A stretch of 64,000 nucleotides of DNA from Candidatus Methylomirabilota bacterium (GTDB taxonomy: Bacteria; Methylomirabilota; Methylomirabilia; Rokubacteriales; CSP1-6), in contig DASTFB010000080.1 in assembly GCA_035709005.1 (NCBI GenBank), positions 1-64,000 of the forward strand, given 5' to 3'. The position numbers were made by a program, and so were the translations under genes. Positions within the stretch are counted from its first letter, which is position 1, and every line of letters begins with the position of its first letter. Shown one piece after another: positions 23,826 through 27,552 of the stretch. Under the pieces are notes generated by a model that had not been told where the DNA came from, did no database searches, and worked only from the letters and a program-made list of their open reading frames with translations.

Positions 23826-26141
23826 GTGCCGATAAGTCCGCTGGAAGTTCCCTCGCGGATTCCCCCCCATAACCTCGACGCCGAGCGCGCCGTCCTGGGG
23901 GCCGTGCTGCTCGAAGGCCGGGAGACGTTGCCGCGGGTCATCGAGCTCCTGCGCCGCACCGACTTCTATACGGAAGCGCATCGGACCATCTACGAGACGA
24001 TGCTCCGGCTGTTCGACCGCGGGGAGCCGGTCGACCTCATCACGCTGAGCGAAGAGCTGCGGCGGATCGCTGCCCTGGAGGCCGTCGGCGGCCCCGCCGC
24101 CCTGGCGCTCCTGGTCGAGCACGCCTCCATCGCCGCCCACCTCGGGTCCTACGCCACCATCGTGCGCGACATGGCCGTGCTGCGTGAGCTCATCCAGACG
24201 TCGACGCAGATCATCACCCAGGCCTTCGACGCCAAGGAGGACGTGCAGAGCCTGGTCGATGATGCCGAGCGCCGGATCTTCGGGCTCGCCGAGCGCCGGC
24301 TGGAGGGCAGCGCCCTGCCCGTCGGCAGGATCCTCAAGAACACCTTCGAGTACATCGAACGGCTCTACGAGCGGAAGGAGCACGTCACCGGCGTGGCCAC
24401 GGGCTTCGAGAAGCTCGACCTGGAGACGTCGGGTCTGCAGCCCTCGGACTTCGTGATCATCGCCGGCCGCCCGAGCATGGGCAAGACCGCATTCTGTCTC
24501 AACATCGCCCAGCACGTGGGGATCGTGCTCGGCGGCAAGGTCCTGTTCCTCAGCCTGGAGATGTCCGCGCCCCAGCTGGTGCAGCGGATGCTCTGCTCGG
24601 AGGCGAAGGTGGACTCCCAGGGTGTGCGCACGGGACGGCTCTCGGCCTCCGACTGGCACCGCCTCACCGCAGCGGCCGGGCGCCTGAGCGAGGCGGCGAT
24701 CTTTATCGATGACTCGCCAGGGCTGACCGTGCTCGAGGCTCGGGCCAAGGCGCGGCGCATGAAGGCCGAGCACGGCCTGGACCTGCTCGTGATCGATTAC
24801 CTGCAGCTCATGCGGGGGCGGGCCTCGATGGAGAGCCGGCAGCAGGAGATCTCGGAGATTTCCCGATCGCTCAAGGCGCTGGCCAAGGAGCTCAACGTGC
24901 CGGTGGTCGCGCTGTCTCAGCTCTCGCGGGCGGTGGAGTCACGGGCCACCCGGGATTTCCGGCCCCAGCTGAGCGACCTGAGAGAGTGCGTGACCGGGGA
25001 CACGCTCGTACTCCTGGCCGACGGGCAGCGGCGTCCGATCGGCGAGCTCGTGGGCGCGACGCCCGAGGTCCTGGCGATGCACGGGACCGGGAGCATCGCT
25101 CCGGCCAAGAGCGAGCGAATCTGGAAGGTCGGCGTCCGCCCGGTATTCCTGATCAGGCTGGCGAGCGGGCGGATGCTGCGAGCCACCGCACAGCACCGTC
25201 TGTTTTCCGGGCAGGGGTGGGTGACCGTCAGCGGGCTGGCAGTGGGCGACCGCCTCGCTGTCGCTCGTCGACTGCCCGAGCCCGCTGCGCGGGATGCGTG
25301 GCGCGACCTTCGAGTGGCCCTGATGGGTCAGCTGTTCAGCGGGAACTTCGGGCAACGCTCCCATCAGAAGCGGATTCCTCGGGCCGCGTTCATGCTCTCG
25401 AACCGGCAGATCGCCCTGCTGCTTCGCCGCCTGTGGGCCACCCACGGCACCATCGCGGTACGCCGCCACTCGCGGGGCAGCCATGGCGTCTCCTACAGCA
25501 CCAACAGGCCGGGCGCTTCGACCAACAAACCAGGCTACCGCCCTTCGTTCTTTGTCCCCGTATCGGGGGCGTCGCAGTTGCGGCGATTCCTCGATACCGT
25601 CGGCGCCTTTGGCCCCCGTCGCGCTCAGGCGGAGCGTCTCAAGGGCTGGTTAGCGGCTCGGAAGGCCAACACGAATGTCGACACGGTGCCGCTCGGGGAC
25701 GTCGACCGCGTCAGGGCACTGACGCGCGAGAAAGGCCTCTCTACTGGACGAATGGCAGCGCTTCGCGGCACCGCGTACAGAGGAGGGGTACTGCGGTCGC
25801 GCGCGACGGACGACCTCTTCTGGGATCGGATCGTCGCGATTTCGCCTGACGGGGAAGCCGAGGTGTTCGACCTGACGGTCCCCGGTCCGGCCTCCTGGCT
25901 CGCGGACGGAATCGTCAGCCATAATAGCGGCGCGCTCGAGCAGGACGCCGACCTCATTCTCTTCCTCTATCGTCCCTCGGTCTACAAGGAGGACCTGCCT
26001 CCCGACGAGGCCAACATCACCGAGCTCATCATCGGGAAGCAGCGTAATGGCCCGGTGGGCACGGTGAAGGTCGTCTTCCTGCCCCAGTACGCCCGCTTCG
26101 AGAACGTCGCGGATCTGCACCGCCAGCCGCAGCCGTTCTGA
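23826..26141 (+). CDS. dnaB: Replicative DNA helicase DnaB with intein
   Basis: Hexameric 5'-3' helicase of the replication fork. The precursor is 771 aa; removing the 313-residue intein leaves 458 aa, the normal size. The N-terminal domain (PPHNLDAERAVLGAVLL) is followed by a linker and the RecA-like motor with Walker A GRPSMGKTAF (about residue 215), LFLSLEMSA, DYLQLM and SQLSRAVE. The intein splits LSDLRE from SGALEQDADL, the site usually called DnaB-b. The rest of the motor (LIIGKQRNGPVGTVKVVFLPQYARFEN, broken) follows it. The start is GTG 23826 with GAGG upstream. Confidence 0.95.
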   Translation: MPISPLEVPSRIPPHNLDAERAVLGAVLLEGRETLPRVIELLRRTDFYTEAHRTIYETMLRLFDRGEPVDLITLSEELRRIAALEAVGGPAALALLVEHASIAAHLGSYATIVRDMAVLRELIQTSTQIITQAFDAKEDVQSLVDDAERRIFGLAERRLEGSALPVGRILKNTFEYIERLYERKEHVTGVATGFEKLDLETSGLQPSDFVIIAGRPSMGKTAFCLNIAQHVGIVLGGKVLFLSLEMSAPQLVQRMLCSEAKVDSQGVRTGRLSASDWHRLTAAAGRLSEAAIFIDDSPGLTVLEARAKARRMKAEHGLDLLVIDYLQLMRGRASMESRQQEISEISRSLKALAKELNVPVVALSQLSRAVESRATRDFRPQLSDLRECVTGDTLVLLADGQRRPIGELVGATPEVLAMHGTGSIAPAKSERIWKVGVRPVFLIRLASGRMLRATAQHRLFSGQGWVTVSGLAVGDRLAVARRLPEPAARDAWRDLRVALMGQLFSGNFGQRSHQKRIPRAAFMLSNRQIALLLRRLWATHGTIAVRRHSRGSHGVSYSTNRPGASTNKPGYRPSFFVPVSGASQLRRFLDTVGAFGPRRAQAERLKGWLAARKANTNVDTVPLGDVDRVRALTREKGLSTGRMAALRGTAYRGGVLRSRATDDLFWDRIVAISPDGEAEVFDLTVPGPASWLADGIVSHNSGALEQDADLILFLYRPSVYKEDLPPDEANITELIIGKQRNGPVGTVKVVFLPQYARFENVADLHRQPQPF
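24987..25925 (+). mobile_element. DnaB intein with degenerate LAGLIDADG endonuclease
   Basis: A 313-residue protein intron. It begins CVTGDTLVLLADGQ (Cys1) and has block B ATAQHRLFSGQGWV (TxxH). It ends VFDLTVPGPASWLADG then IVSHN before Ser+1, so all residues needed for self-splicing are present. The central part aligns in position with a LAGLIDADG homing endonuclease, but the two catalytic motifs read LMGQLFSGN and LRRLWATHGTI. The expected aspartates are lost, so it can probably splice but not cut DNA. Confidence 0.9.
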
Positions 26142-26282
26142 GCCGCGACCGGCGTCTCAGCGCAGTAAAAAGGCCAGGAACTTTCACTGTCTGCTTCCCG
26201 GGTACCCCACTGGAAGCGTTTAGTTTTCAGCTGGTTGCCTCAAAAAGCCGGGGTGGCTCACACGCTGGAACGGCTCTTGCCA

Positions 26283-26323
26283 ATGGATAGCCTCCGAGCG
26301 GTCATGCTCAGGAGGCTATCCAT
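26283..26323 (+). promoter_or_regulatory. Hairpin covering the ribosome-binding site of the zinc-ribbon gene
   Basis: ATGGATAGCCTCC (26283-26295) pairs perfectly with 26311-26323. GAGC/GCTC extends the stem inwards to a 6-nt loop with one bulged A. The stem contains the Shine-Dalgarno AGGAGG and the first two bases of the ATG at 26322, so translation would be blocked while it is folded. Confidence 0.7.
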
Positions 26324-26507
26324 GAGTTGCGGGTGCCGTGTAGACGTTGCGTATCAGTTCCACCAGCTCGCCTGCATGGAGTGCGGCGCCGCCTGTTGCC
26401 CGGCGTGTGGCGTCCAGCTCGAATCGGTGACGTACTGCGAGCGATGCGCTCGGTCGTTGCTGGGTTACGCTCCCATCCGCCCCGAAGGGCGGTTCGATCT
26501 GCACTGA
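26322..26507 (+). CDS. Small cysteine-rich zinc-ribbon protein
   Basis: A 61-aa protein with eight cysteines and two histidines: CGCR near the start, CMECGAACCPACG and YCERCARSL. This resembles a zinc-ribbon or B-box-like fold, with no catalytic domain. The frame is open 29 codons further upstream, but ATG 26322 has AGGAGG six bases before it. It stands alone between dnaB and the AlkA gene. I do not recognise the family; the cysteine spacing suggests metal binding, and the RBS hairpin suggests regulated translation. Confidence 0.65.
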   Translation: MSCGCRVDVAYQFHQLACMECGAACCPACGVQLESVTYCERCARSLLGYAPIRPEGRFDLH

Positions 26508-26526
26508 AGCAGGCCCGGACATTCCT

Positions 26527-26562
26527 CCGGCGCCGGGGTCCTCGGTGAGGCCCCGGCGCCGG
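26527..26562 (+). terminator. Strong GC hairpin after the zinc-ribbon gene
   Basis: CCGGCGCCGGGG pairs perfectly with 26551-26562 across a 12-nt loop. No T-tract follows, so it is a possible but not typical terminator. Confidence 0.4.
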
Positions 26563-26631
26563 CCCCCGACCCGCGGCCCCGTCAACTCGCCGTCGACGCT
26601 CTGATACACTTGATCCCCGCGTGATTCGCGA

Positions 26632-27552
26632 ATGAACATCACCCTGAATCCCGACGGCCCCCTCGACGTGCGCGCCACGCTGGCCCGCTATCGGATCTGG
26701 GGGGAGGACCCGGCCAATCGCGTCGCCGGGGAGGAGTTCCGTCGTGTGTTGCGACGCGATGGCCAGCTGGTCCCCTATACGGTTCGCAGCCGGGGCACCG
26801 TGGACCAGCCCCGGCTCGAGATCGAGGCGCCGGAGCCCGACCTGGACGACGTCGCCGCGGCCATCGTCCGCGAGGTCCGCACGGTCTTCGGTCTGGACTT
26901 CGATCTGCCCGGGTTCTATCGGATGGCCAAGGCGGATCCCGTGCTGTCCGGGCTCATCGAGCCGCTCTACGGACTACGCCCGACGCTCGCCCCCTCCGGG
27001 CTGGAGATGCTCGTCGGCTCCATCTGCGCGCAGCAAGTCAACCTGACGTTCGCCTTCGCGCTCCGCGCCCGTCTCGTGCGTCGGTACGGCGAGCGCGTGA
27101 CGATCGGCGACGACGCAGTGTGGGCGTTCCCGGAGCCGGGAGTGCTGGCCCGGGCGCGCGTGTCCGCGCTGAGGACCATGCAGTTCTCGCAGACGAAGGC
27201 TCTGGCCATCCGCGGCGTGGCGGACGCCATCGCGTCGGGGGCCCTGGACCTCGAGGCGCTGGGCCGGGCCGCCGACGGCGAGATCATCGCCCGCCTCACC
27301 GCGCTGCACGGTGTGGGCCGCTGGACGGTGGACTGGTACCTGGCCCGTTGCCTGGGGCGGGGCAGCGCGTGCGCCGCCGGCGATCTCGGGGTGCGCAAGG
27401 CGGTCGCGCGCTACTACGGGCGTGGCCGCATGGCGAGCGAAGGCGCTATTCGCCGCCGGGTCCGGGCCTGGGGGGCGTACCAGAACCTCGCCATCCACTA
27501 CTTGCTGGCCGGCCTGCGGATGGAGCGCGCCTCGACAGGTGGCGGGTCGTGA
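26632..27552 (+). CDS. DNA-3-methyladenine glycosylase II (AlkA-like, HhH-GPD)
   Basis: Base-excision repair glycosylase removing alkylated purines. The 306-aa protein has an AlkA-type N-terminal domain and the helix-hairpin-helix LTALHGVGRWTVDWYLAR (about residues 221-238). The GPD loop AAGDLGVRKAV carries the catalytic aspartate near residue 250. SICAQQVNLTFA is the conserved entry helix. It may be used against endogenous or soil methylating agents. The stop overlaps the GTG of the DUF971 gene. Confidence 0.88.
   Translation: MNITLNPDGPLDVRATLARYRIWGEDPANRVAGEEFRRVLRRDGQLVPYTVRSRGTVDQPRLEIEAPEPDLDDVAAAIVREVRTVFGLDFDLPGFYRMAKADPVLSGLIEPLYGLRPTLAPSGLEMLVGSICAQQVNLTFAFALRARLVRRYGERVTIGDDAVWAFPEPGVLARARVSALRTMQFSQTKALAIRGVADAIASGALDLEALGRAADGEIIARLTALHGVGRWTVDWYLARCLGRGSACAAGDLGVRKAVARYYGRGRMASEGAIRRRVRAWGAYQNLAIHYLLAGLRMERASTGGGS

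Follow-up and report, generated by a model that had tools for sequence, protein, structure and literature searches.

A hairpin over the ribosome-binding site of a cysteine-rich microprotein gene overlaps the predicted start of a sigma-54-type promoter in a Methylomirabilota bacterium

We analysed a stretch of 64,000 nucleotides (the window) from a soil-dwelling Candidatus Methylomirabilota bacterium, a relative of Ca. Rokubacteria (GenBank assembly GCA_035709005.1, contig DASTFB010000080.1) and found that the ribosome-binding site of a small gene is covered by a stable predicted hairpin, that a sigma-54-type promoter element recurrent in the gene family stands directly before this hairpin, and that the predicted start of transcription falls within the hairpin's 5' arm. 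The cost of opening the ribosome site drops steeply, in computation, once the RNA begins there. We tentatively favour the view that the gene has its own sigma-54 promoter and that the hairpin keeps RNA reading through from the upstream dnaB gene untranslated.

Results

A stable predicted hairpin covers the Shine-Dalgarno sequence and start codon

The hairpin is real and occupies positions 26283-26323 of the forward strand, with 13 perfect outer pairs, a bulged A and five inner pairs (-30.7 kcal/mol). An inverted-repeat search delimits the outer arms, 26283-26295 (ATGGATAGCCTCC) and 26311-26323 (GGAGGCTATCCAT), which are 13 nt each, 100% complementary and separated by a 15-nt gap; within the gap, fold prediction places an inner stem (26296-26300/26305-26309), a loop (26301-26304) and the bulged A26310. 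A reading of the DNA made from its sequence only had described a 17-base-pair hairpin that contains AGGAGG and most of the AUG, and this description is borne out: the 41 nt form 18 predicted pairs (17 Watson-Crick and one G-U), and the 3' arm carries the GGAGG of the Shine-Dalgarno sequence (five of the six bases of AGGAGG are paired) and the paired A and U of the start codon. The ribosome site is hidden as claimed, by prediction, in RNA that holds both arms. The 81 nt around the hairpin fold with a z score of -6.1, and 0 of 200 shuffles are as stable.

The helix is predicted to be unchanged up to 55 °C and to keep all pairs but one at 85 °C; an RNA thermometer is therefore unlikely and was rejected. 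Rfam has no match in 26100-26700 at any E value up to 1.

In 455,709 bases of the source genome (the window and 20 further stretches), 35 perfect inverted repeats have arms of at least 11 nt and a loop of 3-25 nt, against eight in a dimer-shuffled control. Four of them have longer arms and six others equal ones, and by a simple pattern test the hairpin at 26283-26323 is the only one of the 35 to carry a Shine-Dalgarno sequence and start codon in an arm. No exact second copy of the arm is present elsewhere in the source genome, where the four matches with one mismatch are all single arms; the arm was accordingly rejected as a mobile or regulon element.

The hairpin belongs to a conserved microprotein gene

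The gene, at 26322-26507 on the forward strand, was delimited as an open reading frame, by homolog search and by alignment, and encodes a microprotein (P0001) of 61 aa with nine cysteines. Eight of these (C3, C5, C18, C21, C26, C29, C39 and C42) are invariant in an alignment of the window's own sequence with 20 relatives, in the order CxC..CxxC..CxxC..CxxC. Matches occur in 40 of 60 genomes searched (E <= 0.01), in 59 of 95 genomes of the phylum (E <= 1e-8) and in 43 of 57 of the family (E <= 1e-6), the source genome being counted each time; judged by the matches in 40 of 60 genomes, the gene is real. Eighteen named contigs with relatives have Ca. Rokubacteria/Rokuibacteriota, Methylomirabilota or NC10 titles, and no relative on a viral contig was confirmed. 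The sequence-only reading had assigned the protein to no known family, and rightly so: it is conserved, and no Pfam model (best 14.6 bits, cut-off 25) or NCBIfam model exceeds its cut-off. Profile matches to the PDB are weak (best E 0.052), the structure model has low confidence (pLDDT 68.9, pTM 0.50) and its matches to LIM and FYVE domains are weak as well (best E 0.18). The eight invariant cysteines and these matches recall the two-zinc folds of the LIM, FYVE or RING kind; unlike those, the microprotein has a low-confidence model and no sequence family over cut-off, and a fold name was rejected because model and fold search are too weak. From its cysteine pattern, the protein may bind zinc.

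In L008, L009, L014, L016, L017, L021 and other loci a second microprotein of the CECGMT..YCRWCA type stands in tandem, directly before a gene resembling isocitrate lyase/PEP mutase. The other microprotein copy of the source genome (C31, L110) is of that type; it precedes such a lyase-like gene and has no clear promoter site (p 0.545).

A sigma-54-type promoter element precedes the hairpin and recurs in relatives

Immediately 5' of the hairpin stands CTGGAACGGCTCTTGCC (26265-26281, forward strand), a sigma-54-type promoter with GG at 26267-26268 (-24) and GC at 26279-26280 (-12), ten bases apart, which the sequence-only reading had missed. It lies near the sigma-54 consensus TGGCACG-N4-TTGCW, with a score of 13.7 of 15.2 that is equalled by 0 of 200 shuffles. 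No sigma-70-type promoter was found in 26100-26700. The source genome encodes rpoN (PF04552, best E 1.9e-60; two matches above the cut-off, the second partial), and its sigma-54 presumably uses the site. In a ChIP-chip study of Salmonella sigma-54, the GG and TGC elements are centred on -24 and -12, intergenic sites with TTGA or TTGT at -12 are tabulated, and so is TGGAACGCGTCTTGCAGG within ftsQ, with a low matrix score of 6.2; its authors caution that such intragenic sites are perhaps partly mispredicted (PMC3844500).

The catalogue of homologous genes has 84 rows, a few of which are fragments or list one gene twice (L026, L111). Judged by mononucleotide shuffles, 24 rows carry a site at p <= 0.05 and 13 of them at p <= 0.01. 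Twelve loci, each from a different genome (L008, L009, L010, L012, L014, L017, L018, L022, L026, L051, L056 and L123), have an orthologous gene for an NtrC-type activator that ends 213-355 nt upstream. Eleven of these 12, selected by the activator and not by the site, carry a site scoring at least 12 of 15.2; the site of the twelfth, L018, is degenerate at 10.0. In three of the 11 (L022, L026, L123) the site lies 88 nt 5' of the chosen start codon, which may not be the true one. The two activators tested both have a Sigma54_activat domain; they come from L012 and from L071, which covers the same region of its contig as L010 and supplies the reference activator, itself one of the 12. Identity to the reference is 63-80%; the match of G054 is in two parts, 212 aa at 67% and 185 aa at 43%. 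In a thirteenth locus, L125, the activator match upstream of the gene is broken and more distant (47-54%), and there is no site (9.2). Sites of 12.2, 11.7 and 12.7 follow dnaB without an activator in L015, L027 and L064, as in the window; in L027 and L064 they lie only 24 and 14 nt 5' of the chosen start. A promoter footprint of 14 rows (L009 and L123 dropped as near-duplicates) overstates conservation, since its rows were picked among loci known to carry the site.

The exact pattern YTGGAACGNNYCTTG has 24 matches in 57 family genomes, against 9 for a reversed control. Six of the 24 directly precede the microprotein gene and 18 do not, and a wider regulon of this exact element was rejected.

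Upstream of the gene in L011, L016, L019, L021, L029 and L032 lies another sigma-54-like element, GGCACAGTGnGTGCA or a near variant, often preceded by a CGATAAAAACAATGAGTT-like block some 20-40 nt away; no activator match was found for these six loci in the flanking sequence covered. In L146, at about position 1501 of the minus strand, CTGGAACGCCTCTTGCT is followed by a start codon 28 nt after the 15-base match, and the gene, a possible sigma-54 target, encodes a protein with a CxxCH haem-type motif.

The predicted start lies on the steep part of the opening-cost curve

From sigma-54 geometry, transcription would start at 26290-26294 (forward strand), inside the 5' arm; we set +1 at 26292, 12 nt after the C of the -12 element (26280). 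For RNA beginning at each of five positions from 26142 to 26283, the predicted cost of opening the ribosome site is 16.3 kcal/mol. It is 12.7 kcal/mol for a start at 26290, 8.5 at 26291, 6.3 at 26292, 3.4 at 26293 and 1.8 at 26294. As the start zone lies on the steep part of this curve, two bases would decide how open the message is. A start at 26292 removes nine of the 13 outer pairs and leaves a remnant of about nine pairs, with a cost still above the median of the homologs; from 26290, the nearest purine, the lock would barely be relieved. Since the predicted start falls within the 5' arm, mRNA from the gene's own promoter should lack the full stem.

The upstream dnaB gene is a possible source of read-through RNA

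The gene of the replicative helicase DnaB, with an intein (23826-26141, forward strand; Pfam DnaB_C, DnaB and Intein_splicing), ends 180 nt 5' of the microprotein gene on the same strand, and no terminator-like or intrinsic terminator site was found in 26100-26700. Read-through from dnaB, a possible source of RNA holding both arms, would therefore be plausible. The intein itself spans 25011-25925; L072 and L074 appear to be without it, their DnaB matches coming as abutting pieces of 386 and 71 aa. About 20 nt after the stop codon of the microprotein gene, at 26527-26562, lies a second GC-rich hairpin with 12-nt arms (CCGGCGCCGGGG), which was not scored as a terminator and may be an RNA end. 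Elsewhere in the window, TATTAGCACTC-N9-GAGTGCTAATA at 19943-19973 matches CIRCE, the operator to which the heat-shock repressor HrcA binds.

In L070, L072 and L074, relatives with long contigs, the gene order, taken from tblastn (clusters of open reading frames include antisense frames), is dnaB, activator, microprotein gene or genes, isocitrate lyase/PEP mutase-like gene, APC permease and glycosylase; L071 has the same order without a permease match. The window has the microprotein gene directly after dnaB and then the glycosylase gene; the activator, lyase-like and permease genes of those loci are not in the window. Nor was an ortholog of the activator found in the source assembly (95% complete), whose 30 activator-like matches at E <= 1e-30 reach at best 49% identity, against 63-80% among the orthologs. 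The promoter may therefore be a relic or use another activator.

One relative has an unrelated hairpin in the same place

The sequence-only reading had named relatives with the gene and without the inverted repeat as evidence against itself, and such relatives are the rule. A Shine-Dalgarno sequence is recognisable in 66 of the 78 catalogue rows that have a start codon, and 64 of these 66 lack a perfect repeat of at least 9 bp over the ribosome site; the rows left out were six lacking a start codon and 12 lacking a Shine-Dalgarno sequence, among them L022, L123 and L026, whose true start codons may be located farther 5'. The hairpin is absent from most homologs that have the promoter. The median opening cost of homologs, for RNA from -70, is 2.9 kcal/mol, and three rows reach 9: the source genome (G000) at 16.3, the second gene of L008, which has no such repeat, at 10.5, and G002 at 9.9.

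The two rows with a repeat are those of the source genome and of G002 (L012), which belongs to another genus. The 9-bp stem of G002, TCCTCCTTG/CAAGGAGGA, is unrelated in sequence, and its 5' arm falls between the -12 element and +1, placed as in the source genome. Opening the ribosome site of G002 costs 10.2 kcal/mol in RNA that starts 150 nt before the start codon, 14.6 in RNA that starts at -11 and 3.3 in RNA from +1, and RNA from its own promoter is predicted to lose the 5' strand. The nearer kin of each genome lack such a repeat, which makes two independent gains likely; in a tree of the microproteins the two fall in different groups, with weak support (81/83).

Shuffling of the upstream bases gave p 0.007 for the source genome, the lowest value that the test can return, and 0.020 for G002, which alone is not significant after 20 tests. 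Over all 20 sites (score at least 11.5, L018 added by hand, those without a Shine-Dalgarno sequence or less than 22 nt from the start omitted), Fisher's p is 0.10, and 0.56 for the 18 other than these two. By these values the hairpin is not a feature of the family and the case of G002 is suggestive only; locking of the ribosome site in read-through RNA across the family was rejected. Some leaders without a perfect repeat also open when far-upstream RNA is absent (L103 from 10.6 to 2.8, L058 from 7.5 to 1.7, L014 from 7.2 to 3.1). In L008 and L009 the fold is more stable than in shuffles (z -2.1 and -2.5), but with a main stem that runs from the leader into the coding region.

Discussion

According to the reading that we tentatively favour, RNA reading through from dnaB would hold both arms and fold into the 18-pair helix, burying the Shine-Dalgarno sequence and start codon and leaving the ribosome site silent, while sigma-54 polymerase, starting within the 5' arm, would make a readable mRNA without most of the outer stem. 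Selection would then be what keeps the hairpin. A precedent is the leader of gene e (lysozyme) of phage T4, as well as those of soc, 49 and I-TevI: the long early RNA of gene e hides its ribosome site and is repressed 100-fold, whereas late promoters start past the 5' strand (PMC3014915). The pairing of the ribosome site in RNA begun upstream is predicted likewise for the microprotein gene, and RNA of its own promoter may lose the 5' strand, to a degree that would depend on the exact start. Unlike in T4, the setting is a bacterial chromosome with a sigma-54-type promoter, start point and effect are predicted, and CUCC/GGAG and the inner pairs would stay in an RNA that starts at 26292.

The transposase genes of IS10 and IS50 are protected against outside transcription in a similar way, by a hairpin present only in read-through RNA that hides the ribosome site, as is proposed for the window locus; here, however, no transposon was noted and the arm has no other exact copy in the genome. 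With sigma-54-driven genes of the NtrC type the locus shares the GG-N10-GC element and, in 12 relatives, an activator gene just upstream, but the activator is missing at the window locus and no ortholog of it was found in the assembly; a cognate activator close by is common for such promoters, though not a requirement.

Several other explanations were weighed. The hairpin could be a mutational accident, in which a short template switch copied the start region (GGAGG..AT) inverted just upstream; it may then be neutral or mildly harmful, at a locus that is without the activator, lyase and permease genes of its relatives. Template switching has been reported as an origin of RNA hairpins (PMC8794818). 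The 13 outer pairs are perfect, which is expected of a recent copy, a perfect repeat over the ribosome site is absent from 64 of the 66 rows of homologs, and the three genes found between dnaB and glycosylase in L070, L072 and L074 are missing from the window; against this, both the promoter element and the microprotein are intact, the latter retaining the eight cysteines that are invariant in the family, and a second, unrelated hairpin occupies the same place in G002. We consider an accident somewhat unlikely. It is improbable that the inverted repeat acts as DNA, as an operator bound by a protein over the start region of the promoter. Counted from the predicted start, the dyad covers -9 to +32, which we would expect of a repressor site, but the genome holds only single arms with one mismatch and no second exact copy, other homologs with a similar promoter lack the repeat, except G002, whose stem differs, and the arms correspond to the ribosome site itself, a match that is not required of an operator.

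The sequence-only reading had proposed a dedicated translational switch responding to heat, metal, a protein or an RNA ligand. Such a switch would account for the prediction that the ribosome site is strongly occluded when the RNA has both arms, yet the hairpin is not conserved (two of 66 rows have a perfect repeat of at least 9 bp there, with unrelated stems), Rfam offers no match in 26100-26700, the helix is predicted to be stable to 85 °C, and the predicted mRNA start, inside the 5' arm, removes most of the outer stem; we give this proposal little credence. Acting on the gene's own mRNA, a switch is the least supported of the regulatory readings, although a ligand or protein acting on read-through RNA is conceivable. 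Most improbable is that the hairpin lies within a coding region, with an N-terminal extension (MDSLRAVMLRRLS-) begun at one of the ATGs at 26283 and 26304. Both lie in the reading frame of the gene, which is open back to a TTG at 26235, but translated homologs, with starts chosen by us, begin 2-4 residues before the first CxC, L008, L009, L010, L014, L015, L016, L017 and L021 have no further in-frame upstream start (some others have one), no Shine-Dalgarno sequence is visible by eye before either ATG, and a start at 26283 would precede the predicted +1. A read-through lock of the T4 gene e kind is preferred over a ligand or heat switch because only read-through RNA would keep the full hairpin.

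More doubtfully, the locus may exemplify a promoter-split hairpin in a bacterial chromosomal gene, its 5' arm lying between the -12 element and the sigma-54 start, so that the choice of promoter decides translatability, and such an arrangement may have arisen at least twice in one family. In the full-text literature searched, short of most subscription journals, we found no RpoN/sigma54 case of a ribosome site hidden in read-through RNA and nothing on sigma-54 in Rokubacteria. The analysis links an unnamed family of cysteine-rich microproteins to probable sigma-54 control and to a recurrent gene cluster of Ca. Rokubacteria. If the promoter-split reading is true, a bacterium couples the identity of a promoter to translation through a hairpin strand placed inside that promoter, which would give sigma-54 genes a way to remain silent in busy neighbourhoods.
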